A stretch of 64,000 bases of DNA, taken from positions 118,020-182,019 of the forward strand of contig NZ_SNZH01000003.1 in NCBI RefSeq assembly GCF_004363655.1, given 5' to 3'. The translations under genes were made by a program, and so were the position numbers. The stretch is from Tahibacter aquaticus. GTDB lineage: Bacteria; Pseudomonadota; Gammaproteobacteria; Xanthomonadales; Rhodanobacteraceae. Shown in pieces: positions 40,540 through 52,153 of this stretch (positions within the stretch are counted from its first letter, which is position 1; the number at the start of each line of letters is the position of its first letter). A model generated the notes under the pieces. It was not told the origin of the DNA and searched no databases. It saw nothing but the letters and a program-made list of their open reading frames with translations.

Positions 40540-43302
40540 CTACCGCTCCGCCGAACCGCCGAAGCGATAGGCGAATTCGAGAAAATACTGGCGGCCAATG
40601 GGGTCGAACTGGAACTGGTCGTAGTACGGATAGGTGCTGTTGGTGTTGTCGCGGTGCGGCGGTGTGTTGCGCACGTTGTTGATGGCCAGGCCGATGCGCG
40701 CGCGGTCGTTGATGCGGTAGTCGGCGGACAGGTTGTAAGTCATGGTCGGGCCGTAGCGGCCGCTCTGGTCGCGCGTGGGCAGTGAGCCGTAGCGCTGGCC
40801 GAACACGGTGGTGGTGACCGGGCCCAGGGTCCAGGCCACGCTGCCGCTGACCTTGCTGCGCAGGTTGTTGTTGCCGCGGTCGTCGCGCACGTTGATTTCG
40901 TCGTCGCCGGGAAATTGTTGATAGGTGTATTTCAATACACCGGTGTAGTTGAAGCGAAAGCGGAAGTCGCCCAGGCGCGCGGTTTCCAGCCGGTAGTTCA
41001 CGGTGGCGTCGATGCCGGCGTTGCGCAGCGACGCGGCGTTGATCGGATAGGTGTCGGCGCCGGCGATCTGGCCGGGGTTGATCAGCGCGTCGGCCGGGTT
41101 GCGGTTGACCAGGGCGAGTACCTGCTGGCAGGTCGGCGAATTGATGTCGACGACGGTGCCGCCTTCGGTGCGGCCCAGGCGGCAGTCGGCTTCCTTGCTG
41201 AGGATTTCGTCGAGGCTGCGGTCGGTGATCGCGTTGTCCAGGCGGATATCGTAGTAGTCCAGGCTCAGGTCGAACTCGGGCAGCGGCGACCAGACAAATC
41301 CATAAGTGAACGACTTGCCGGTTTCGTCGTCGAGCTGGCGGTTGCCGCTGCGCGTGCCCTTGACCGAGACGCTGTCGAAATCGCAGTCGGAATACGGCAC
41401 GTCCGGCTGGCGCGAGCGGCACAGGTAATAGTCAGTCAGCGTGTAGTAGGCGCCGCTGGGGCCGGCGAAGACGTAGTGCAGGTCGGGTGCGCGGAAGCTG
41501 GTGGCCGCGCTGCCGCGCACCAGCAGCGAATCCAGCGGCCGCCATTCCAGGCCCAGCGACTGGGTTGCCTTGCCGGTGGAATGGCCGGCGAAGCGGTAGC
41601 TGTCGTAGCGCGCGGCCGGCGTCAGGCTGAGCGTGGACAGGATGGGCACGCGCAGTTCCGCGCCAACCGCGTAGTGGCTGCGCGAGCCGGCGCCGCCGGT
41701 GCCGGTCCAGCTGAAATAGCGGTTGTTCAGTACATCCGGATCGATCTGCATGGAATACGACTGGGTGCCGTATTCCGCCACGGCGGCGATGCCGACGTCG
41801 CCGGCGGGCAACGAGAACAGTTCGCCGTTGTCGACGGTGAGGTTGAACGACTCGGCGCGGGTGCGGCCACGGATCGGCGTAAAGCGAGAAATGGAATTGT
41901 ATTCCGCGACCGTCAGCGGCCGGTACAGGCGCGACACGTCGGGACGGAAGATGTCATAGCCGGTTTCCTCGTCCACGCCTTCGGATTCGCCGAGGAAGAA
42001 GCGGTCGGCTTCGGCCGACAGGATGGCGCGGTGTGCCTGCACCATGGTGAAGCTGGAGTGCGAATAGCCGGCGTCGTAGTGCCAGGCGCCGAGCTGGCCT
42101 TCGATGCCGGTGGTGAGCGAGCGCGTGGTATCGCGGTTGTAGTCCAGCACCGCGTCCAGGCCGCCGACTTCCTCGGGCGTGAAGATGCGCTGCCAGGCTT
42201 CGAAGGTGCCGGTATCGGCATTGATGAAGGCGTTGTCGCCGGAACCGGTATAGCCCCAGAAATTCGGCCCGCCACCGAATTTGGCGCGCGTATGCGCGGC
42301 CTGGTAGTCCAGGTACAGGCGCGTGTCGTCTGTCAGGTGGTAGGTCAGTGCGGCGTAGCCGACGCCGTTCTCGCGTTCGTTCTGCACCGTGCCGTAAAGC
42401 GCTTCGGTACTGCCGCAGTAATAGCCGCGGTTCGGGCGGAAGCTGTAGTCGAGTGTGCCGCGGTCCAGATGGGACAGGGCATCGCAGGTGGCCTGGCCCG
42501 GGTCGATATAGCGCAAGGTGGCCGGGTTCCAGCGCAGGAAGACGCGGCTGGGCACGGCGGCGCGGCCGTTCAGGCTGGGATCGTCATTGAGCGAATCCTG
42601 GAAGCTGCGCTGGTACTGGAAGATGGGATCCTGCTTGTAGAACTCCACGCCGAACAGCGTATCGAGCCGGCCTATGCTGCCGCCGGTGGTCATCTGCAGG
42701 CGCTGCGAGAAACCGCCGCCGTCGCTGGTATCGCCGATGCGATAGTTCAGCGTGCTGCCGTCGGCCTTCTTCTTCAGGATGAAGTTGATCACGCCGGAAA
42801 CCGCATCAGAGCCATACACCGCCGAGGCGCTGCCGGTGAGTACTTCGATGCGTTCGATCATCGATACCGGAATATTGGCGATGTCGGTGAAATTGCTCTG
42901 GCCGTTGTAGGCCAGCGGAAAATCCGCCATGCGCCGGCCGTTGAGCAGTACCAGGGTATAGCTGGGGCCGAGGCCGCGCAGGTCGACCTGCTGCGCGCCC
43001 GGGGTAAAGCCCTGGAATTGCTGCGTCTGCACCGAGCCGGTGGATTGGGTGAGCGAGCGCACCACGTCGTAGGCCGTGGCCAGTCCCTTGGCGCGAATGT
43101 CGTCGGCGGTGATCACGGTGACGGGCGCCGGGCCTTCGATGGTGGCGCGCGGAATGCGCGAGCCGGTGACGACGACGCTTTCCAGTTCGGTAGCGTTGTT
43201 TTCGTCGGTAGCGGCCGGCTGGCCCGACTGTGCCGCGGCAATAGCCGGCACTGCGCCGAAGCTGGCGAAGGCAATGGCCAGGTAGAGTGGTGTGCGACGC
43301 AT
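40540..43302 (-). CDS. TonB-dependent receptor
   Basis: The 920-aa outer-membrane receptor starts at 43302 (GGGGGG upstream; MRRTPLYLAIAF signal ending AAAQ). A TonB-box-like ELESVVVTGSR follows, then a plug domain (PAPVTVITADDIRAKG, QQVDLRGLGPSYTLVLLNGRRMADF, IERIEVLTGSASAVYGSDAVSGVINFILK) and a 22-strand barrel ending DPIGRQYFLEFAYRFGG. Several paired cysteines lie in barrel loops. The type resembles receptors for plant or animal polymers, catechols or unknown ligands in Xanthomonadales; no specific substrate can be read from sequence. It has no neighbouring transport or sigma gene. Confidence 0.95.
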   Translation of the reverse strand: MRRTPLYLAIAFASFGAVPAIAAAQSGQPAATDENNATELESVVVTGSRIPRATIEGPAPVTVITADDIRAKGLATAYDVVRSLTQSTGSVQTQQFQGFTPGAQQVDLRGLGPSYTLVLLNGRRMADFPLAYNGQSNFTDIANIPVSMIERIEVLTGSASAVYGSDAVSGVINFILKKKADGSTLNYRIGDTSDGGGFSQRLQMTTGGSIGRLDTLFGVEFYKQDPIFQYQRSFQDSLNDDPSLNGRAAVPSRVFLRWNPATLRYIDPGQATCDALSHLDRGTLDYSFRPNRGYYCGSTEALYGTVQNERENGVGYAALTYHLTDDTRLYLDYQAAHTRAKFGGGPNFWGYTGSGDNAFINADTGTFEAWQRIFTPEEVGGLDAVLDYNRDTTRSLTTGIEGQLGAWHYDAGYSHSSFTMVQAHRAILSAEADRFFLGESEGVDEETGYDIFRPDVSRLYRPLTVAEYNSISRFTPIRGRTRAESFNLTVDNGELFSLPAGDVGIAAVAEYGTQSYSMQIDPDVLNNRYFSWTGTGGAGSRSHYAVGAELRVPILSTLSLTPAARYDSYRFAGHSTGKATQSLGLEWRPLDSLLVRGSAATSFRAPDLHYVFAGPSGAYYTLTDYYLCRSRQPDVPYSDCDFDSVSVKGTRSGNRQLDDETGKSFTYGFVWSPLPEFDLSLDYYDIRLDNAITDRSLDEILSKEADCRLGRTEGGTVVDINSPTCQQVLALVNRNPADALINPGQIAGADTYPINAASLRNAGIDATVNYRLETARLGDFRFRFNYTGVLKYTYQQFPGDDEINVRDDRGNNNLRSKVSGSVAWTLGPVTTTVFGQRYGSLPTRDQSGRYGPTMTYNLSADYRINDRARIGLAINNVRNTPPHRDNTNSTYPYYDQFQFDPIGRQYFLEFAYRFGGSAER

Positions 43303-43928
43303 ACATCCCCCCAATGACGTGCAAAGTAATGTTGTGAACTTTTCCGGCAGCGCGTCCACGCTGCCGGCCAGGCGGTTTTCCGGCGCGAGCCCGCCCGACG
43401 GCGGCATGTCCGTGGCGTTCGTTGCGTTATGGATTGCCGCTGGGGCATTCCTGCCGGCACGCGGCGCGGGGCCGGCGTGGCAGGCAAACATTCGCATGCG
43501 TCTTCTGTTCAGTCTCTACCGATTCCGCCGCGGCCACGGTGCGGTGTGCAAAAGCACTGGCTTACGCAAAAGCGTCATATATCGCGGTGATTTTGCCGAT
43601 TCGTCCGTGCGTACACGTGCTTCGGCGGCAAGCGTGGCCTGCGCGCGAGGGTTGCAACGAACTGCTTCGTAGCAGTAGCGCTTTTGCAGCGCGATCGAAC
43701 CGGTAGGTGTGTTGCGTGGCTGCGGCAGGCGGGACGTCCGGTGCGGCGCTGGGTTCGGCGTTGTGCGTAGGTCTGGCGGCGCAATTCGCTTTCGCTCATC
43801 GCGCCCTACCAGGGCAAGCGTCGCTGTGGGTAGGCAGGGGGCAATGAGCGCAGGTGCATTGCAGCCGGCGGCGCGTCGGTGCGCCGCCGGCTGCAATGTC
43901 GGGCGGATCGGTAGTTTTGCCGCGTGGC
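43303..43928. other. Intergenic region upstream of the TonB-dependent receptor
   Basis: These 626 bp contain the receptor's promoter region (no clear -10/-35 found) and a 17-bp-stem hairpin at 43858-43897. Small frames here are low-complexity and unsupported. Confidence 0.5.
43858..43897. terminator. 17-bp perfect hairpin after the GST gene
   Basis: ATTGCAGCCGGCGGCGC and GCGCCGCCGGCTGCAAT are exact inverted copies around a 6-nt loop, 31 bp beyond the GST stop. There is no T-tract, so it may act as a Rho-independent-like stem or RNA stabiliser. Confidence 0.55.
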
Positions 43929-44630
43929 CTAGCGGGGAATGTTCTGCGCCGTTTGCCCGAACAGGATCTTGCGGCTTTCTTCGGTGATGGTCGGACGGCT
44001 GGCGAAATCAGCGGCCTTGGCATAGGCGCGGATCGTCGCCGGCCGCTGGGCGATGGCGTCGAACCAGCGCTTGAGGTGGGGGAAGTCGGCGAGATCCTGC
44101 TGCTGCCGCTCGTGCGGCACTATCCACGGATAGCAGGCCATGTCGGCAATCGTATAGGCGTCGCCGGCGATGAATTCGCGGCCGGCCAGGCGCTTGTTCA
44201 GCACGCCGTAGAGCCGGTTGGTTTCATTGACGTAGCGCTGGATCGCGTACGGAATCTTTTCCGGCGCATAGGTGCCGAAATGATGGTTCTGCCCGGCCAT
44301 GGGACCGAGGCCGCCGACCTGCCAGAACAGCCACTCGGTGACGACTTTCTTGTGGCGCGCATCGGCGGGCAGGAACTGGCCGGTCTTTTCCGCCAGGTAG
44401 AGCAGGATGGCACCCGACTCGAACACGCCGATGGCTTCGCCGCCGTCGGCCGGCGCGCGGTCGATGATGGCCGGCATGCGGTTGTTCGGCGAGAAAGCGA
44501 GGAAGTCGGGCTTGAACTGTTCGCCCGCGCCGATATCGACGGGATGGATGCGGTAGTCGATGCTGGCTTCTTCCAGCAGTAGCGTGATCTTGTGACCGTT
44601 CGGCGTAGGCCAGTAGTACAGCTCGATCAT
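43929..44630 (-). CDS. yfcG: Glutathione S-transferase family disulfide reductase (YfcG-like)
   Basis: The 233-aa cytosolic protein has the YfcG/YghU-type N-terminal thioredoxin-fold domain: MIELYYWPTPNGHKITLLLEE with Thr9 and Asn11 in place of the usual Tyr/Ser, then SPNNRMPAIID and ESGAILLYLAEK. The C-terminal helical domain includes EWLFWQVGGLGPMAGQNHHF and DYGF-like FIAGDAYTIADMACYPW. E. coli YfcG reduces disulphides with two glutathiones. It lies 57 bp beyond the end of the STM4011-type gene on the same strand, but is more likely an unrelated neighbour. Confidence 0.9.
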   Translation of the reverse strand: MIELYYWPTPNGHKITLLLEEASIDYRIHPVDIGAGEQFKPDFLAFSPNNRMPAIIDRAPADGGEAIGVFESGAILLYLAEKTGQFLPADARHKKVVTEWLFWQVGGLGPMAGQNHHFGTYAPEKIPYAIQRYVNETNRLYGVLNKRLAGREFIAGDAYTIADMACYPWIVPHERQQQDLADFPHLKRWFDAIAQRPATIRAYAKAADFASRPTITEESRKILFGQTAQNIPR

Positions 44631-44687: not shown

Positions 44688-45614
44688 TCAAGGTGCGAAA
44701 TCCGCCAGCGGCGGCGAGGCTGCCGGACTCTGACGCACGCTTGCCGGCCAGCCGTCCATCACGCGCTCCAGCACGCCCTGGTCGAAATAACGCTCGTGGC
44801 CGATATCGCGCCGGTGCATGTAGCCGATGTAGCAGTCGCAGTGCGCGTTCGGGCAGGCGCGCGGTGCGCGGTGCCGGCGGAAGCTGCCGTCGTAGAGGTT
44901 GCCCAGCGGCAGCGGCACGAAATGACAGGGCCGCACGTTGCCGTCGCCGTCGACGGAAAGCGCCGTATCGCCCGCACGGCAGTCGGCGCCGAGGCTGGGC
45001 GGCGGCGCCAGGCTGCGCGGGAAATGCGGATCGACGGCGCTGAGGCGCTGTATCTGTTGCGTGCTGTAGTAGTCCGCCGGGCGCGGATCGAAGGCATTTA
45101 TCCAGAGGTATACATCGCCCGGCAACGCGCGGCGCAGGGCTTCTATCGCGGCGATGTCTTCGCGCTGGCCGACCATGCCGACGCTGAAGCGCACGCCGGC
45201 GTCGCGCAGCAGGTCAAGGCGCCTCAGAAACGTGGCTTGTGCCAGTTGCGAAGGATGGAAGGTGCACCACAGCGCCAGGGTTTGCGTATTGGCCCGGGCC
45301 AGCCAGCGCAGGTTGCTGCTCAGGTTGGTCTGTATCGCCACGCGGCGCAGGCGCGGCGCGTGGCTAAGCCGGACCAGGGCATCGATGTAGTGGCGCCGCA
45401 CCAGGCCCTCGCCCCAGGGCGTGAACAGCACGGCCAGGGTTTCCGGCGCCTGCTCGCACCAGGCGACGAAGCGCTGCAGCTCGGCCGCATCGCGGCGCAG
45501 GGTGTCGGCCGAATCGCGCCGCTTGGCGAACGGGCAATAGCTGCAGTCGTAGTTGCAGCTGGCCAGACGGCCGCGATAGAGCAGGCGCAGCGTATCGGCC
45601 TCAAGCCGCCGCAT
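44688..45614 (-). CDS. STM4011-family radical SAM protein
   Basis: The 308-aa protein has the radical SAM cluster motif CNYDCSYC (C20-x3-C24-x2-C27) near the start and a Cys-rich C-terminus (CRAGDTALSVDGDG, CHF, CPNAHCDCYIGYMHR) that could hold auxiliary iron-sulphur clusters as in SPASM enzymes. It abstracts hydrogen from an unknown substrate using SAM. It is the last gene of the five-gene cluster whose order matches Salmonella STM4015 to STM4011, and its start overlaps the stop of the STM4012-type gene by 14 bp. The family name is my recognition from the gene order and sequence; the reaction is unknown. Confidence 0.85.
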   Translation of the reverse strand: MRRLEADTLRLLYRGRLASCNYDCSYCPFAKRRDSADTLRRDAAELQRFVAWCEQAPETLAVLFTPWGEGLVRRHYIDALVRLSHAPRLRRVAIQTNLSSNLRWLARANTQTLALWCTFHPSQLAQATFLRRLDLLRDAGVRFSVGMVGQREDIAAIEALRRALPGDVYLWINAFDPRPADYYSTQQIQRLSAVDPHFPRSLAPPPSLGADCRAGDTALSVDGDGNVRPCHFVPLPLGNLYDGSFRRHRAPRACPNAHCDCYIGYMHRRDIGHERYFDQGVLERVMDGWPASVRQSPAASPPLADFAP

Positions 45615-46932
45615 CGGCGTTCATCCGCGACTGCACCTGGGTGGAATTGAGCCAGGGGCCGATGGCATCGGCATGGGCCATGCCCAGTTCGGTCATCGCC
45701 ACGACAGCGCCGCGGCGCTCGGCCAGGCCGGCCCGTTCCAGTTCGGCCAGCTCGGCGAAGCAATCGTGCGCCGGCAGGCCGAAGCGCCGGGCGAATGCTT
45801 GCGTATCGAGGCCGGGCCAGGTCAGCAGCGACTGGATCAGGTAGCGCCGGCGCTGTTCGGCGGCGTCCAGCACGAAGCCGTAGCGTGCCGTGGCGAAGCT
45901 GGCTGCATCCTGGGCGATGTAGTTGCGCAGGATGGCGCTGACGCCGGCACGTTCCACCGCGTAGTGATCGGAATAGTGCAGCGTGCGCGTATAGGAGCGG
46001 GCGCCGCAGCCGAAACCGATCATGCCGTCGTCCTGGCAGCAGTAGGCCGGGCCCCCGCTTTCCGGCGCATGCGCGGCGCGGAACAGGCGCATGGATACCT
46101 GGGTATAGCCGGCAGCGCGCAAGGTATCGCGGCCGATGTCGTAGAGGGCGCGGCGCGGATCGTCGGCCAGCGCCACGTTGCCACGCTGCAGGCGCGCCAT
46201 GCCGGTGCGCTCGCGCACGTACAAAGGGTATAGGTATATTTCTTCCGGCTGCAGCGCGACCAGGCTGCGCAGCGAGGCGGCGAAGCTGGCTGCGGTCTGG
46301 CCGGGTATGCCGTAGATCAGGTCGAGGTTCAGCGTGGGGAAGCCCAGCCGGCGCACCTGCTCGACGGCGGCCAGCACGGCGCCGTTCTGCGCCGGGCGTA
46401 CGAGGGCCGACAGTTCTGCTTCGACAAAGCTCTGCACGCCCATGCTGACGCGGTCGATGCCGGCGTCGCGGCAGACCTGCAGGCGCTCGGCCGTGGCGGT
46501 CTCGGGGCTGACTTCAATGCCGCTCGGAATCTGTGCCAGCTCTGCGCCAAGCGCGCTGTAAACCGCGTCGAATACGCGCGCCAGCTGCGCAGCGGAAAGG
46601 TAACTGGGCGTGCCGCCGCCGATGGCGAAACGGGCGAACTGGCGCTGGCCCAGCAGCGCGCCGGTCACGCGTAACTGGGCGACCAGCTGGGTCACGTAGT
46701 CGTCGACCAGCGCCGCGCCCGGCTGGCCCAGGGCAAACAGGTTGCAGAAGCCGCAGCGGTAGGTGCAGAAAGGAACATGGATATAACCGAACAAGGCGCT
46801 GCGGTCTTCCTGCTGCCACAGCATATCCAGCGCCACCGGCTGTGCCAGCGGACGATAGGCCGACTTGTGCGGATAGGAGTAGCTGTAGGACTGATAGGGC
46901 GACTGGCGCAGGTGCGTGAGCAGGTCAGTCAT
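45601..46932 (-). CDS. STM4012-family radical SAM protein (HemN-like)
   Basis: The 443-aa protein is a HemN-type radical SAM enzyme: CTYRCGFC (C56-x3-C60-x2-C63), GGGTPSYLSAAQL, SPETATAERLQVCRDAGIDRVSMGVQSF and NLDLIYGIPGQT. It has an N-terminal block PYQSYSYSYPHKSAYRPL typical of this subfamily. I start at 46932; an ATG three codons earlier is equally possible. The upstream sulfatase-like gene overlaps it by 8 bp. HemN is a coproporphyrinogen oxidase, but this subfamily is found only in the STM4011-4015 cluster, so haem synthesis should not be assumed. Confidence 0.87.
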   Translation of the reverse strand: MTDLLTHLRQSPYQSYSYSYPHKSAYRPLAQPVALDMLWQQEDRSALFGYIHVPFCTYRCGFCNLFALGQPGAALVDDYVTQLVAQLRVTGALLGQRQFARFAIGGGTPSYLSAAQLARVFDAVYSALGAELAQIPSGIEVSPETATAERLQVCRDAGIDRVSMGVQSFVEAELSALVRPAQNGAVLAAVEQVRRLGFPTLNLDLIYGIPGQTAASFAASLRSLVALQPEEIYLYPLYVRERTGMARLQRGNVALADDPRRALYDIGRDTLRAAGYTQVSMRLFRAAHAPESGGPAYCCQDDGMIGFGCGARSYTRTLHYSDHYAVERAGVSAILRNYIAQDAASFATARYGFVLDAAEQRRRYLIQSLLTWPGLDTQAFARRFGLPAHDCFAELAELERAGLAERRGAVVAMTELGMAHADAIGPWLNSTQVQSRMNADAAA

Positions 46933-47749
46933 GGGCGGCAATCCGGAAATGCGTATACGGCACCTGCATCACGCTGGGATGGGCATGGCGATGGCCATGG
47001 TAGCCGTCTTCGCCATAGGACGTGCCGTGGTCGGAACAGAGCATGACGAAACTCGGCCCGCGCTGCGCCAGCGCCTGCCATAGCGGCGCGAGGGCCGCGT
47101 CGACATAGCGCAGCGCGGCGGCATGGGTATCCAGGCCATCCTGTGCTGCGCCGGCCAGGTAATGCCGGTTCGGCTGGTGGATCGCCGAGACATTGATGAA
47201 CAGGAAAACGCGGCGGCCGCGCAGATCGTCGCTCTGCAGCCGCGCGCAGGCCAGGGCGACCTGCCGCGCCGTGGAATCGGCATCGGTCACGCCGAATTCC
47301 GGCTGCCAATGGCTTTCCGCGAACAGGTTCGGCAACTGGCTGCCCAGCGGCGTCTGCTTGTTGAAAAAGCCGACGCCGCCGATGCACAGCGTGTGGTAGC
47401 CGAGCCGGGCGAGGCCGCCGACGATGCTGTCGGCATCGTCCAGTACCAGGCTGTGGGCGTGGGTGGTTTCGCTGCCGGGAAAGCGCAGGCAGAACAGGCG
47501 CGGATGCAGGCCGGGCTGTGCCGGCGTGGGCAGGAAGCCGGCAAAAAAAGCGCAATGCGCCGCATAGGTGAAGCTGCCTGGCGTATGCCGCAGCTGCCAG
47601 CCGTCGGTGCCCATGAATTGTGCAAGATGCGGCAAATGTCCGGCATGGAACTGCTGCTGCGCCACGTCGTAGCGCAAGGTGTCCAGGGTCACCAGCACCA
47701 GGTCGTGCGTGCCGGCGATGTGGCGCATATCGGGGATTTCAATTGGCAT
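46925..47749 (-). CDS. STM4013/SEN3800-family hydrolase (sulfatase-like)
   Basis: The 274-aa protein belongs to the alkaline phosphatase/sulfatase superfamily: LVLVTLDTLRYD (metal Asp and nucleophile region, Thr24 in place of a sulfatase Cys/Ser), FTYAAHCAFFAG, and SDHGTSYGEDGYHGHRHAH with the usual Asp-His metal ligands. It lacks the sulfatase C-x-P-x-R formylglycine motif, so a phosphatase or phosphotransferase role is more likely. It sits between the ATP-grasp-like STM4014 gene (11-bp overlap) and the STM4012 radical SAM gene (8-bp overlap), in keeping with one transcript. Substrate unknown. Confidence 0.85.
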   Translation of the reverse strand: MPIEIPDMRHIAGTHDLVLVTLDTLRYDVAQQQFHAGHLPHLAQFMGTDGWQLRHTPGSFTYAAHCAFFAGFLPTPAQPGLHPRLFCLRFPGSETTHAHSLVLDDADSIVGGLARLGYHTLCIGGVGFFNKQTPLGSQLPNLFAESHWQPEFGVTDADSTARQVALACARLQSDDLRGRRVFLFINVSAIHQPNRHYLAGAAQDGLDTHAAALRYVDAALAPLWQALAQRGPSFVMLCSDHGTSYGEDGYHGHRHAHPSVMQVPYTHFRIAAHD

Positions 47750-48869
47750 GGCACATCAGGCTGGCCTGGTCGTCATAGGTTTCGCAGCCGTCGTGGCGCA
47801 GGCCGGGCAGCAGGTCGCCGAAGGCGTTGGCTTCCAGCAGCGTGGTGCCGTGGGGTGTCACGATGGCGTCGAAGCCGATGCTGTGGCAGCCGGGGAAGGC
47901 CTGTGCCGCCGCAGCGATGGTGCGGGCAAGACTGGCCTGGCGGTGCGGGTCCAGCCAGTCGGGCTGGGCGCGCGCATTGCCCAGGTGCAGGTTGGTCATG
48001 GGGCTGCGGCTGATGCGGGCGACGCGCTGGCGTGCCTGGCCGGCATGGGCGACGACGCGCAGATCGTAGTGGCCGCGCTGCGGCGACGGTGCGCGCGGCT
48101 TGCGCACCCAGGCTTCCGCATAGGCGCCTTGTGCGGCAATGGCGTCGACCAGTGCCGCGATGTCGCTGCGGCGGCTGTAGCGGCTGACGCGCAGGTGGTT
48201 GAACACGCGGCCGCTCGCATCGCGCCGCGCCGAACTGTAGGCACTCAGGCGGCCGTCGCGGTGGCGCTGCAGGGCGATCACGCCGGCGGCGGAAGAACCG
48301 TAGCGCGGCTTGAGGAAGACGCGCGGCCAGTCGCCTGCGGGCCACTGCGCATCCAGCTGCTCCAGCGAATGCAACAGTCCCAGCAGCGGCGGTACCGGCA
48401 CATGCGCGGCGAGGGTCCGCTGGCATTGCCATTTGTCGGTCATGCCGCGGATGCCGGCCGTGCTGTTGAGCAGGCGCGGCGGCGCGGCGGCGCCTGCGAC
48501 GGCGGCGTCGATCCAGCCCAGTGCCTGGCCGAAGCCGGCCTGCCAGTAGTGCTGCGTGGCGAGTTCGCCGTGCAGCACGGGCGAGGGCGGCGCAGCGGCG
48601 CGGTCGCCGGCCTGCCAGCCCAGCAGGCGCAGACGCTGGGCGCAGTCGGCGTCTTCGCCGGGCGAGTCGATCTTGAGCCAGCGATGGCGGCCTTGTGCCA
48701 GGCGCTGCGCCAGCAGGGCCGGCGCGGCGAGGAAGGCGTTCCAGTCGAGCAGGTCCAGCGCCACGCCGGCGCGTGCGCAGGCCTGCTGCAGCAGCTGGCT
48801 GCGCCGCGATGCGGCATGGCCTAGCAGCAGCACTTCACTCGGAGACTTCGACGTAGCGATCGCCGTCAT
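47739..48869 (-). CDS. STM4014-family protein (ATP-grasp-like)
   Basis: The 376-aa protein has an N-terminal Rossmann-like region (VLLLGHAASRRSQLL) and an ATP-grasp-like core: TDKWQCQRTLA, RVFLKPRYGSSAAGV (nucleotide-binding Lys and glycine loop), HYDLRVVAHAGQ and FDAIVTPHGTTLLEANAFGD (metal-binding Glu/Asn). ATP-grasp enzymes form amide bonds with ATP. The ATG at 48869 overlaps the STM4015 gene by 35 bp; a GTG at 48833, just after that stop, gives a start VLLLGH and may be the real one. Predicted partner of the two radical SAM enzymes. Confidence 0.82.
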   Translation of the reverse strand: MTAIATSKSPSEVLLLGHAASRRSQLLQQACARAGVALDLLDWNAFLAAPALLAQRLAQGRHRWLKIDSPGEDADCAQRLRLLGWQAGDRAAAPPSPVLHGELATQHYWQAGFGQALGWIDAAVAGAAAPPRLLNSTAGIRGMTDKWQCQRTLAAHVPVPPLLGLLHSLEQLDAQWPAGDWPRVFLKPRYGSSAAGVIALQRHRDGRLSAYSSARRDASGRVFNHLRVSRYSRRSDIAALVDAIAAQGAYAEAWVRKPRAPSPQRGHYDLRVVAHAGQARQRVARISRSPMTNLHLGNARAQPDWLDPHRQASLARTIAAAAQAFPGCHSIGFDAIVTPHGTTLLEANAFGDLLPGLRHDGCETYDDQASLMCHAN

Positions 48870-49746
48870 CCTCTTCCTGGGCTTCGTCGATACGCAGCTG
48901 CAGCGGCAGGGCGCGCAGGCTGGTGATCAGCGGCTTGGAAATGTAATGGTGGTTCAGATCCAGCACTTTCAGGCCGGCCAGATAGGGGCTGGCGATCAGC
49001 GCGGCGGCGCCCTTGTCGCCGAGGGTGCCCATGGACAGGTCCAGCGTGTGCAGGCTGCTCAGCCAGGGCTGCTGGGCGATATGCTCGGCCAGTTCGTCGG
49101 CGATCTGCGCATTGCGCAGGCCAAGGTAGTGCAGGCGTTCCGGGCGGATATGCCGCAGCAGCTCGATGTAGTCGCCCAGCTTGCCGTCGAAGCCGTAGCC
49201 GTCGTCGCCCAGCCACAGTTCCAGATGGCGCAGGGCCGGCATGGTGGAATTCTGGATATTGCGTACAATTTTCGTGGGCAGGCCGCCGGTTTCCAGGGCC
49301 AGCTCGCGCAGGGCATGGTGTTCGAAGGCGGGCAGTACCAGGCCGTCGGTGCCGCGGATGCGCAGGGTTTCCAGGCCGTGGAAGGTTTTCAGCAATTTGC
49401 TGTAGTCACCCTGCTTGATCCAGGAGATCTCGCAGTCTTCCGAAGTCATGTCGCCGATGAACAGCGCCTTGAGTTCGGTCAGTTCCGGCTGGCGTTCGAC
49501 CAGGCGGTCGAGGAAGGCCTGCGGGTCGTCTTCGGAGGCCGTCGCCCAGGCGCCGAGGATCAGTGCTTCCAGCGTGGCCGGCGTGGTCTTGGCGAGGAAA
49601 TCGTCGAGCAGCGCGACCTGGCTTTCGTCGGCTTCGTATTCCTGGCCCAGGCGGTAGACCGCGGCGGATTTCTTCAGCTCGTCGCCGTAGGCGAATTCGA
49701 CTACGCGCTTGCCGAAGAACGTTTCGGCATGGTGACTGACGGTCAT
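48835..49746 (-). CDS. STM4015-family leucine-rich-repeat protein
   Basis: The 303-aa protein heads the cluster. Its N-terminus (MTVSHHAETFFGKRVVEF) is followed by leucine-rich repeats: LETLRIRG, LRELALETGGL, LRHLELWLGDDGYG, LHYLGLRNAQI, LHTLDLSMGTLGDKG, LKVLDLNHHYIS. The C-terminus is acidic (EAQEEDDGD). LRR proteins bind other proteins, so it may be the substrate or a docking partner for the enzymes. The longer frame upstream lies opposite the DUF1993 gene and was not used. Confidence 0.85.
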   Translation of the reverse strand: MTVSHHAETFFGKRVVEFAYGDELKKSAAVYRLGQEYEADESQVALLDDFLAKTTPATLEALILGAWATASEDDPQAFLDRLVERQPELTELKALFIGDMTSEDCEISWIKQGDYSKLLKTFHGLETLRIRGTDGLVLPAFEHHALRELALETGGLPTKIVRNIQNSTMPALRHLELWLGDDGYGFDGKLGDYIELLRHIRPERLHYLGLRNAQIADELAEHIAQQPWLSSLHTLDLSMGTLGDKGAAALIASPYLAGLKVLDLNHHYISKPLITSLRALPLQLRIDEAQEEDDGDRYVEVSE

Positions 49747-49944: not shown

Positions 49945-50472
49945 ATGACTTTCTCGCTCTATGCGGCAACCGTTCCGTCCTATGTGCAGATGCTGGGTGC
50001 GATGCTCGGCCTGATCGACAAGGCCGAGGCCTATTGCGCGGAAACCGGCCTTGCTGCCGAGGCATTGCTGCAGGCGCGGCTGGCCGAGGACATGCGTCCG
50101 TTCACCTACCAGATCAAATCGACCGCGGTGCATTCGCTGGGCGCGATCGAAGGCGTGCGCAAGGGGTCGTTCAGCCCTGACAACAGCACGCCGCCGGATA
50201 CCTTCGACGCATTGCGGACGCGCCTGTACGAAACCCTTGCAGCGCTGCAGGCGATAGACCCGGCGGAAGTGAACGGCTTTGTCGGCCGCCCCATGCAATT
50301 CATCGCGGGCGAACGCCGGCTGGATTTCACGGCGGAGAATTTCCTGCTGTCGTTCTCGCAGCCGAATTTCTATTTCCATGCGACGACGGCATACGACCTG
50401 CTGCGCTGGAAGGGCGTGGCGCTGGTCAAGCGCGATTTCATGGGCATGCCGCGGATGAATGCGCCGCCGTGA
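49945..50472 (+). CDS. DUF1993 family protein
   Basis: The 175-aa protein matches DUF1993: LYAATVPSYVQMLGAMLGLIDKAEAYC, RLAEDMRPFTYQIKSTAVHS, FTAENFLLSFSQPNFYFHATTAYDLLRWKGVALVKRDFMG. The family is a DinB-like four-helix bundle with conserved His residues that could bind metal; no activity is known to me. It is divergent from the STM4011-4015 cluster with 198 bp between starts, and a TATACT -10-like sequence at 49903-49908 lies 37 bp before its ATG. Confidence 0.88.
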   Translation: MTFSLYAATVPSYVQMLGAMLGLIDKAEAYCAETGLAAEALLQARLAEDMRPFTYQIKSTAVHSLGAIEGVRKGSFSPDNSTPPDTFDALRTRLYETLAALQAIDPAEVNGFVGRPMQFIAGERRLDFTAENFLLSFSQPNFYFHATTAYDLLRWKGVALVKRDFMGMPRMNAPP

Positions 50473-50797: not shown

Positions 50798-52153
50798 TCA
50801 GCCTACGCCGTCGGCAATCTCGAACTGGCAGCCGGTCTTGGCCTTGACGTCGGCCAGGCTGATGCCGTCGTGCAGTTCGATCAGGCGCAGTCCGCCGCTT
50901 TCCTTGACTTCGAATACGCACAGTTCGGTGATGATCAGGTCGACCACGTTCTTGCCGGTCAGCGGCAGGGCGCATTCGGGCAGGATCTTGGGCGAACCGT
51001 CCTTGGCGGTGTGTTCCATCAGCACGACGACGCGCTTGACGCCGGAGACCAGGTCCATCGCGCCGCCCGGGCCCTTGACCATCTTGCCCGGCACCATCCA
51101 GTTGGCCAGGTCGCCGTTTTCCGACACTTCCAGGCCACCGAGGATGGACAGGTCGATATGGCCGCCGCGGATCATGGCGAAGGAATCGGCGCTGGAGAAG
51201 AAGCTCGATCCGGGGATCGCGGTGATGGTCTGCTTGCCGGCGTTGATCAGGTCGGCGTCGACCTTGTCTTCGGTCGGGAAGGGGCCGATGCCGAGCAGGC
51301 CGTTCTCCGACTGCAGGGTGACGTTGACGCCGGCGGGAATATGGTTGGCCACCAGGGTCGGGATACCGATGCCGAGGTTGACGCAGTAGCCGTCGCGCAG
51401 TTCTTTCGCGGCACGCCGGGCCATCATGTCGCGCACGGGGTTTTCCTTGCCGGCCGCGCCGCCGGTGACGGTGCGGAATTCGATGCGCTTTTCGTAGTTC
51501 TTGCCCTGCACGATGCGGTCGATGTAGATGCCGGGGGTGTGGATCTGGTCGGGTTCCAGCTCGCCGGTTTCCACCAGCTCTTCCACTTCGGCCACGGTGA
51601 CCTTGCCGCAGGTGGCGATCATCGGGTTGAAATTACGCGCGGTTTTTCGATAGACCAGGTTGCCGAACTTGTCGCCTTTCCAGGCCTTGACGATGGATAC
51701 GTCGGCAGTGATGGCCGGTTCGAGCACGTATTCCTTGCCGTCGAATTCCTTGGTCTCGCGCTTTTCCGCCAGCTTGGTGCCGAAGGCGGTGCGGGTATAG
51801 AAGCCGGGAATGCCGGCGCCGCCAGCGCGCAGGCGCTCGGCCAGGGTGCCTTGCGGGGTGAGTTCCAGTTCCAGCTCGCCGGCCAGTACCTGGCGTTCGA
51901 ATTCCTTGTTCTCGCCGACGTAGGAGGCGATGACTTTCTTGACCTGGCGTGTCTTCAGCAGCGGGCCCATGCCGAAATCGTCGACGCCGGCGTTGTTGCC
52001 GACGATGGTCAGGCCCTTGGTGCCGGCTTCTTTGAGCGCCTGGATCAGGTTCTCCGGAATGCCGCAGAGGCCGAAGCCGCCGGCGGCGAGGGTCATGTCG
52101 TCGAAGAGCAGGCCGTCCAGGGCTTCGGCGGCGGAGTTGTATACCTTTTTCAC
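50798..52153 (-). CDS. Fused 3-oxoacid CoA-transferase (SCOT type, A+B subunits)
   Basis: The 451-aa protein moves CoA from succinyl-CoA to acetoacetate, for use of ketone bodies and 3-oxoacids. The N-half (residues 1-230) is the A subunit with [25 protein letters not shown] and [12 protein letters not shown]; the C-half (240-451) is the B subunit with the active-site Glu283 in [12 protein letters not shown], then [11 protein letters not shown] and GGAMDLVSG. In most bacteria the two are separate genes; here they are one frame joined by a short linker, as in animal SCOT. The ATG follows GAAAAGGAC upstream. Monocistronic. Confidence 0.9.

Follow-up and report, generated by a model that had tools for sequence, protein, structure and literature searches.

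Introduction

In lysine and arginine biosynthesis, the ATP-grasp ligases LysX and ArgX couple aminoadipate or glutamate, through its amino group, to the γ-carboxyl of the C-terminal glutamate of LysW, and in a haloarchaeon replacing that glutamate of LysW with alanine is described as causing arginine auxotrophy (PMC10433800). RimK is reported to add glutamates to the C terminus of ribosomal protein S6, RpsF (PMC7343187). In the biosynthesis of pearlins, as described in two reports, an amino acid is amide-linked to the C terminus of a ribosomal carrier and then modified, once by a radical S-adenosylmethionine (SAM) enzyme (PMC9303977, PMC9016710). Here we compare these systems with a block of five genes of the STM4011, STM4012, STM4013, STM4014 and STM4015 families, found at positions 44688-49746 of a 64,000-nucleotide stretch of the Tahibacter aquaticus genome (the window; contig NZ_SNZH01000003.1, positions 118,020 to 182,019).

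The NCBIfam models for the five families name neither a pathway nor a product. An earlier note on the window, made from the sequence, had stated that the block has no known product, and in agreement with this we found no papers on the STM4011-4015 system in the open-licence literature when searching by locus tags, family names and combined terms; the locus tags themselves occur in two papers, as one table entry in each. To the NCBIfam families the present analysis adds a conserved tail in STM4015 and a LysX-like assignment for STM4014. We consider it moderately probable that the block is a tail-modification system, in which STM4014 would act on the C-terminal glutamate of STM4015 and the two radical SAM enzymes and STM4013 would follow. 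The general guess of the earlier note, that the genes modify a protein or make a peptide-derived compound, is supported by the comparisons below.

STM4015 proteins end in a conserved glutamate

The block consists of five minus-strand open reading frames (ORFs) in an unbroken chain of overlaps: STM4015 and STM4014 by 35 nt, STM4014 and STM4013 by 11 nt, STM4013 and STM4012 by 8 nt, and STM4012 and STM4011 by 14 nt. All five products exceed the curated NCBIfam cut-offs for STM4011-STM4015. Both the layout and the family names proposed in the earlier note are confirmed. STM4015 (48835..49746, minus strand), the proposed carrier or substrate, is a protein of 303 residues that scores 309 bits against NF038076 (cut-off 275 bits). 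A leucine-rich repeat (LRR) model of Pfam matches it only below the gathering score. Its AlphaFold model, with a predicted local distance difference test score (pLDDT) of 96.7, matches LRR structures, as expected from the repeats noticed earlier, and the best fold match is 2ra8, a Bacteroides fragilis relative that fits the STM4015 profile through its final glutamate.

The last residue of STM4015 is an invariant glutamate in an alignment of ten divergent proteins, and glutamate ends 112 of the 114 STM4015 ORFs that match at 60 bits or more in 90 sequences. Both exceptions look frameshifted: in locus L039 a glutamate-ended STM4015 tail lies in another frame, and in locus L027 the ORF covers the N-terminal part only, with the remainder encoded by an overlapping ORF whose product ends in VTE. 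No conserved last residue is present in STM4011 to STM4014, where the last residues scatter across the same 90 sequences. When the 112 glutamate-ended tails are right-aligned, which fixes the last position by selection, the information content is 2.5-3.6 bits at positions -1 to -6 and 0.7-1.9 bits at positions -7 to -24, and the consensus is near R-[YF]-[VIT]-A-V-[SGAT]-E (also RYVAV[SGAT]E), preceded by an acidic linker. Position -2 is valine in 100 of the 112 tails and position -5 is aromatic in 106 (Tyr in 79, Phe in 27). In the window, the corresponding C-terminal heptad is RYVEVSE (residues 297-303, with Glu303 last; 48838..48858, minus strand).

Overlap with the following gene was considered as the cause of the conserved tail and was ruled out, because the glutamate is kept whatever the gene spacing: among the 112 glutamate-ended genes, 43 overlap the next core gene, 37 are separated from it by 0-20 nt, 29 by more than 20 nt, and 3 have no downstream core gene.

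STM4014 resembles ligases that act on protein C termini

STM4014 (47739..48869, minus strand; 376 residues) scores 280 bits against NF038074 (cut-off 175 bits) and matches the ATP-grasp families of Pfam only below their gathering scores. Searching the PDB with a profile built from 55 STM4014 proteins retrieved LysX (8e-7 for 1uc8/1uc9 and 3e-6 for 3vpd) and RimK (3-4e-6 for 5zct/4iwx), both of which outrank D-Ala-D-Ala ligases (2e-3) and biotin carboxylases, with the graspetide ligase PsnB (7drm) at 0.23. With the AlphaFold model of STM4014 (pLDDT 93.6) as the query for Foldseek, the six top matches are all chains of LysX or ArgX, and five of these come from LysW-containing entries; PsnB, DcsG, DdlB and RimK come close behind, and MdnB is also among the matches. 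By profile and fold, the nearest relatives of STM4014 are thus LysX/ArgX and RimK, whose substrate is the C terminus of a partner protein, and the ATP-grasp core recognised in the earlier note is borne out. The parallel with LysX had been drawn from the STM4015 tail before the PDB profile search of STM4014.

The LysX/ArgX-LysW system, as described in PMC10433800, thus shares with the block an ATP-grasp ligase and a partner protein with a conserved C-terminal glutamate, and provides the best profile and fold match. It differs in its carrier, which is a small zinc-binding protein ending in EDWGE rather than a 303-residue LRR protein, and the present set also includes radical SAM enzymes. Because the EDWGE tail is absent, as is the GSWGR motif by which LysX and ArgX recognise LysW, the relationship is a parallel and not membership. 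No LysZ-, LysY- or LysK-like neighbour was recognised in the listed clusters of genes that recur near the block, and the only aminotransferase seen among them, ectB-like by reading, occurs in 5 loci about 4.3 kb away. RimK resembles STM4014 in profile and fold and also acts on a protein C terminus; compared with RimK and RpsF as presented in PMC7343187, the block has an LRR substrate candidate together with two radical SAM enzymes and a phosphatase-like enzyme.

Graspetide pathways, as outlined in PMC8939145, also use an ATP-grasp ligase, which SPASM radical SAM enzymes often accompany; they differ from the block in that no short precursor gene was found near it and no side-chain nucleophile is fixed in the tail. 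They suggest a different use of the tail. In a pathway resembling those for ribosomally synthesized and post-translationally modified peptides, the LRR domain would be a giant leader and the heptad its core, the radical SAM enzymes would cross-link or alter tail residues such as the Tyr or Phe at position -5, and STM4014 would close a ring through the glutamate as graspetide ligases do. The frequent aromatic residue at -5 and valine at -2, the SPASM-type radical SAM enzyme STM4011, and the presence of PsnB and MdnB among the fold matches are consistent with this arrangement. However, apart from the last residue no position in the final 25 is invariant among the 112 tails, and no Ser, Thr or Lys nucleophile is fixed there; the STM4014 profile is far nearer to LysX and RimK than to PsnB, and a ring through a side chain would not require glutamate at the very terminus. 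We regard this alternative as unlikely.

The conserved tail accompanies STM4014 across genomes

The relationship between the tail and the ligase was compared in 150 Streptomyces genomes, the genus of genome G460, which harbours locus L042. STM4015 exceeds its cut-off in 71 of them and STM4014 in 68. Among the 71 genomes with STM4015, 67 have STM4014 over the cut-off, G492 has a piece of it at a contig edge, and three (G490, G533 and G560) have none. Genomes G514, G532 and G604 hold sub-cut-off STM4015 only and are excluded from the 71; in G532 the STM4015 and STM4014 pieces carry stops. Counting one STM4015 copy per genome, all 68 copies in genomes with STM4014 end in glutamate, whereas none of the three single copies in genomes without it does (ends ...VGPLTY, ...YVSIAV and ...VEGLP). 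The odds of this split are 1 in 57,155 if the genomes are independent, a naive figure that may overstate the case where the tail losses share ancestry. Since the genomes that lack STM4014 hold tail-less STM4015, the glutamate tail appears to be lost without the ligase while the LRR body is kept.

A similar association is seen in a class-wide sample of 394 genomes, where STM4015 exceeds its cut-off in 56 genomes, 55 of which also have STM4014, and 83 of the 84 fetched STM4015 copies (150 bits or more) end in glutamate. The sole exception in both counts is Frankia genome G457, which lies outside the Streptomyces comparison; a search of this genome yielded no STM4014, and its STM4015 reaches the contig end without the usual tail (L171). 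In the 4-kb locus L111, STM4015 and STM4014 occur as a pair alone, which also favours a functional partnership. On comparison of these genomes, the predicted pairing of STM4014 with STM4015 is well supported.

Multiple copies of STM4015 share the enzymes of one block. Among 81 loci (the best 80 of the at least 536 STM4011 relatives found in a genome-collection scan, plus the window), 16 have two or more STM4015 copies, up to six, beside single copies of each enzyme; this count includes one frameshift piece in L027. The LRR regions have a median identity of 63% within a locus (43 pairs) and 54% between Actinomycete loci (2807 pairs). Residues W67, E106, W109, R131, W178, Y184 and D244 of the LRR body are each found in 91-97% of 110 STM4015 copies, and such widely shared positions fit common partner enzymes rather than diversified receptors.

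A common partner would also suit a role in docking only, in which an unmodified tail holds STM4014 or another enzyme on an LRR scaffold that serves a small-molecule pathway; the tail is indeed predicted with fair confidence. A scaffold leaves unexplained, however, both the exact conservation of the terminal residue and the match of STM4014 to ATP-grasp enzymes that act on C termini, and up to six scaffold copies for one enzyme set would be odd; we find docking alone distinctly improbable. STM4015 is more likely a substrate or carrier than the mere scaffold envisaged in the earlier note, because its exact C-terminal glutamate is conserved and tracks the ATP-grasp enzyme.

Some Streptomyces loci (L121 and L123-L126) contain STM4015 genes away from STM4014, with products that end in VGPLTY, VGPLSY, VGPVSY or VEGLP instead of the glutamate tail. 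These copies perhaps form a sublineage with a separate role.

A proposed tail-modification pathway

In the proposed pathway, STM4014 would activate a carboxylate, alpha or gamma, of the C-terminal glutamate of STM4015 and couple it to a small molecule through the amino group of the latter, as LysX and ArgX do with LysW. This first step is well supported by comparison. The LRR domain would then present the tethered group to the SPASM-type STM4011 and the HemN-type STM4012, which would rework it. Finally, STM4013, with its putative threonine nucleophile, and in some lineages an extra haloacid dehalogenase (HAD) phosphatase, could act on a phosphorylated intermediate or in release. The outcome would be an LRR protein that stays modified or else a small molecule freed from its tail, and where one enzyme set lies beside several tandem STM4015 copies, every copy would be a substrate. 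The proposal is founded on the tail conservation, the ligase class and the co-occurrence of the genes, all supported by comparison, and from these we infer the covalent link, the order of the steps, the targets of STM4011 to STM4013 and the fate of the product, either kept on the protein or released.

Several observations weigh against this proposal. Concerning the ligase, its resemblance to ATP-grasp enzymes is broad, with fold scores for PsnB, DcsG and D-Ala-D-Ala ligases that fall little short of those for LysX, at about 15% identity; the two stretches of the LysX profile match are each weak singly (independent E-value about 0.1); and GSWGR occurs in 0 of 80 STM4014 proteins. The tail is not predicted to be floppy (pLDDT averages 93 over residues 291-300 and 81 over residues 301-303). 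In Streptomyces genomes that have STM4014, 4 of 17 STM4015 copies not adjacent to it lack the glutamate end and 13 have it (fragments and sub-cut-off pieces excluded, except that of G501), and the tail-less copies of G490 and G560 resemble three of those four, so that the losses are only partly independent. A Calothrix plasmid, searched as plasmid sequence alone, carries a glutamate-ended STM4015 and no STM4014. A peptidase that could release a product was not recognised in 45 listed recurrent neighbour clusters, not all of which were scanned with family models. Lastly, a neighbouring DUF6745 protein and its small partner, described below, also have conserved C termini, and a conserved end alone is no proof of modification.

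The closest published idea that we found is pearlin biosynthesis (PMC9303977), with a different type of ligase and a small peptide as carrier. As far as the pearlin reports describe them, those pathways use a tRNA-dependent PEARL ligase, a carrier peptide of ~50 residues and proteolytic release, none of which was recognised in the STM4011-4015 loci; for the PEARL ligase this applies to the 45 listed neighbour clusters, where family models were run on part of the neighbours.

More broadly, it is a tentative idea, to which we give slightly less than even chances, that the LRR proteins are a new class of carrier in which an ATP-grasp ligase tethers an amine to the C-terminal glutamate and two radical SAM enzymes and a phosphoesterase yield an unseen modification or metabolite, in about eight phyla that include Salmonella, Streptomyces and Bacteroidetes lineages. 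If true, the few systems that assemble molecules on a protein C terminus would be joined by one with a folded-domain carrier, and two orphan radical SAM families would gain a substrate.

Two radical SAM enzymes and a phosphatase-like hydrolase

STM4011 (44688..45614, minus strand; 308 residues; 365 bits against NF038073, cut-off 200 bits) is a radical SAM enzyme whose C-terminal part is SPASM-like, as seen from a match to PF04055 and a weak match to PF13186 (SPASM). Its CX3CX2C cysteines (20, 24 and 27) and five C-terminal cysteines (212, 230, 254, 259 and 261) are present in all 88 homologues. STM4012 (45601..46932, minus strand; 443 residues; 549 bits against NF006067, cut-off 380 bits) is a HemN-like radical SAM enzyme with a HemN_C domain (PF06969), which we start at the ATG at 46932, the TTG at 46941 of the longer ORF being less likely. 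Its CX3CX2C cysteines (56, 60 and 63) occur in 84 of 84 homologues, two of the 86 having been excluded for odd length. The radical SAM motifs that the earlier note pointed out in these two genes are therefore conserved in all of these homologues.

After its own family, the best general matches of STM4012 are HemW, ChuW/HutW and HemN, which raises the question of whether it belongs to haem metabolism and stands in the block by accident. Its scores are below the cut-offs of all of these families, with 137 versus 325 bits for HemN and 169 versus 205 bits for HemW, the genome of the window has its own HemW (356 bits) and two HemN proteins (567 and 549 bits) elsewhere, and the block is complete in 73 of 81 loci. 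A haem role for STM4012, ruled out on these scores and the separate haem genes, is almost certainly wrong; the earlier note had named such a role for the HemN-like gene as something that would refute its reading.

STM4013 (46925..47749, minus strand; 274 residues; 379 bits against NF038075, cut-off 250 bits) passes the Pfam thresholds for both Sulfatase and Phosphodiest, and its profile retrieves sulfatases and nucleotide pyrophosphatase/phosphodiesterase (NPP) phosphodiesterases from the PDB. Residues D23, T61, H191, D217, D240, H241 and H253 are each present in 81 of 81 homologues (4 of 85 excluded for odd length). These acidic, His and Thr residues are of a sort expected in the active site of an alkaline-phosphatase-superfamily enzyme. 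Thr61, the likely nucleophile, lies at what we take to be the place of the Cys or Ser of formylglycine sulfatases. Of the earlier description as a sulfatase-like protein, membership of the alkaline-phosphatase superfamily stands, but because the invariant Thr61 takes the place of the sulfatase Cys or Ser, STM4013 is more likely a phosphodiesterase- or phosphatase-type member than a sulfatase. A sulfatase with an anaerobic maturase was ruled out for the same reason.

Two groups of HAD phosphatases, assigned to subfamilies by family scans of four members, recur beside these enzymes. A Cof-type HAD-IIB group adjoins STM4011 in two loci each from Salmonella and Nocardiopsis and in one from Glycomyces, five in all, lies farther off in a sixth (L045), and is fused to STM4011 in Bacteroides finegoldii. 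A HAD-IA group is found just before STM4013 in five loci, four from Bacteroidetes and L051. Their recurrence tentatively suggests a phosphorylated intermediate.

The block is patchily distributed and conserved as a unit

In a phylum sample of 398 genomes, 4 have a match of any strength to STM4015 and only that of the window exceeds its cut-off, and the STM4011 cut-off is passed in 6 of 61 near relatives, 4 of which are among the 8 genomes of the window's genus, itself included; the distribution is thus patchy. Where the block occurs it is usually whole, with all five genes in 73 of the 81 loci and the order 4015-4014-4013-4012-4011 on one strand in 71, as anticipated from the conserved neighbourhood claimed in the earlier note. 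According to their record titles, the best 80 loci come from Xanthomonadales, other Pseudomonadota, Actinomycetes, Bacteroidetes, a Sandaracinaceae, a Gemmataceae, a Deinococcales and an Akkermansia-labelled genome, and an Armatimonadetes locus among them has STM4011 only, at a contig end. Complete sets, with examples in Xanthomonadales, Actinomycetes, Bacteroidetes, Deinococcus, Paenibacillus and Salmonella, span about eight bacterial phyla.

Of the 8 incomplete loci, six lie at a contig end or on a short contig. The genomes of two of these, L086 and L087, have STM4014 at another site; in the genomes of the other four (L044, L049, L059 and L085) it was not found. In L026 and L048, STM4014 is missing in place and present elsewhere in the genome. 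Nine plasmid records (L008-L016) are excluded from the 81 loci. Six have the full set, including records from Methylobacterium, Deinococcus, Paenibacillus and Salmonella, and the gene order of the window is that of the Salmonella records L011 and L012. L013 and L015 have STM4015 alone. L016 / L106, from B. finegoldii, has a cut-off STM4013 remnant (L016:9867-10230) and no STM4012, and keeps STM4015, STM4014 and the STM4011-HAD fusion.

The lone STM4015 on the Streptomyces cadmiisoli plasmid (L013:3224-7466) has an AAA ATPase, a TOPRIM protein and a HAD phosphatase in its vicinity, and elsewhere on that plasmid STM4015, STM4014, STM4013 and STM4012 occur together.

Genes in the neighbourhood of the block

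The earlier note had suggested looking for a short peptide gene near other instances of the block. No conserved family of this kind was found among 822 small ORFs (20-75 residues) within 700 nt of it, and a short precursor gene near the block was rejected. The largest group of small ORFs (9 loci) falls within DUF6745 genes, antisense to them; groups of up to 4 loci include pieces of other genes and single-species repeats.

DUF6745 genes themselves, together with a partner of ~100 residues, occur near the block in 41 of the 90 sequences, mostly on the other strand (for example L008:7905-8927 and L010:13100-14110), and the partner ends in aspartate in 35 of 35 loci. In the class-wide sample, DUF6745 has a match in 48 of 394 genomes, and all 32 with 300 bits or more also carry STM4015. 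DUF6745 is likely an accessory of the block. It has no match in the genome of the window, which does not prove absence, and no literature on it was found in open-licence papers.

The source genome of the window comprises 7.27 Mb in 82 contigs. Beyond STM4011 in the window lie a gene resembling glutathione S-transferase (43929-44630, minus strand) and an ORF read as a TonB receptor (40540-43497, minus strand). On the STM4015 side, a DUF1993 gene (49945-50472, plus strand) adjoins the block, and subunits A and B of a 3-oxoacid CoA-transferase are fused in a single ORF of 451 residues (50798-52153, minus strand). In Deinococcus psychrotolerans the divergent neighbour of STM4015 is a DinB-family gene (L010:7455-7961); with DUF1993 in the corresponding place in the window, this could be a recurrent association, or may be chance.

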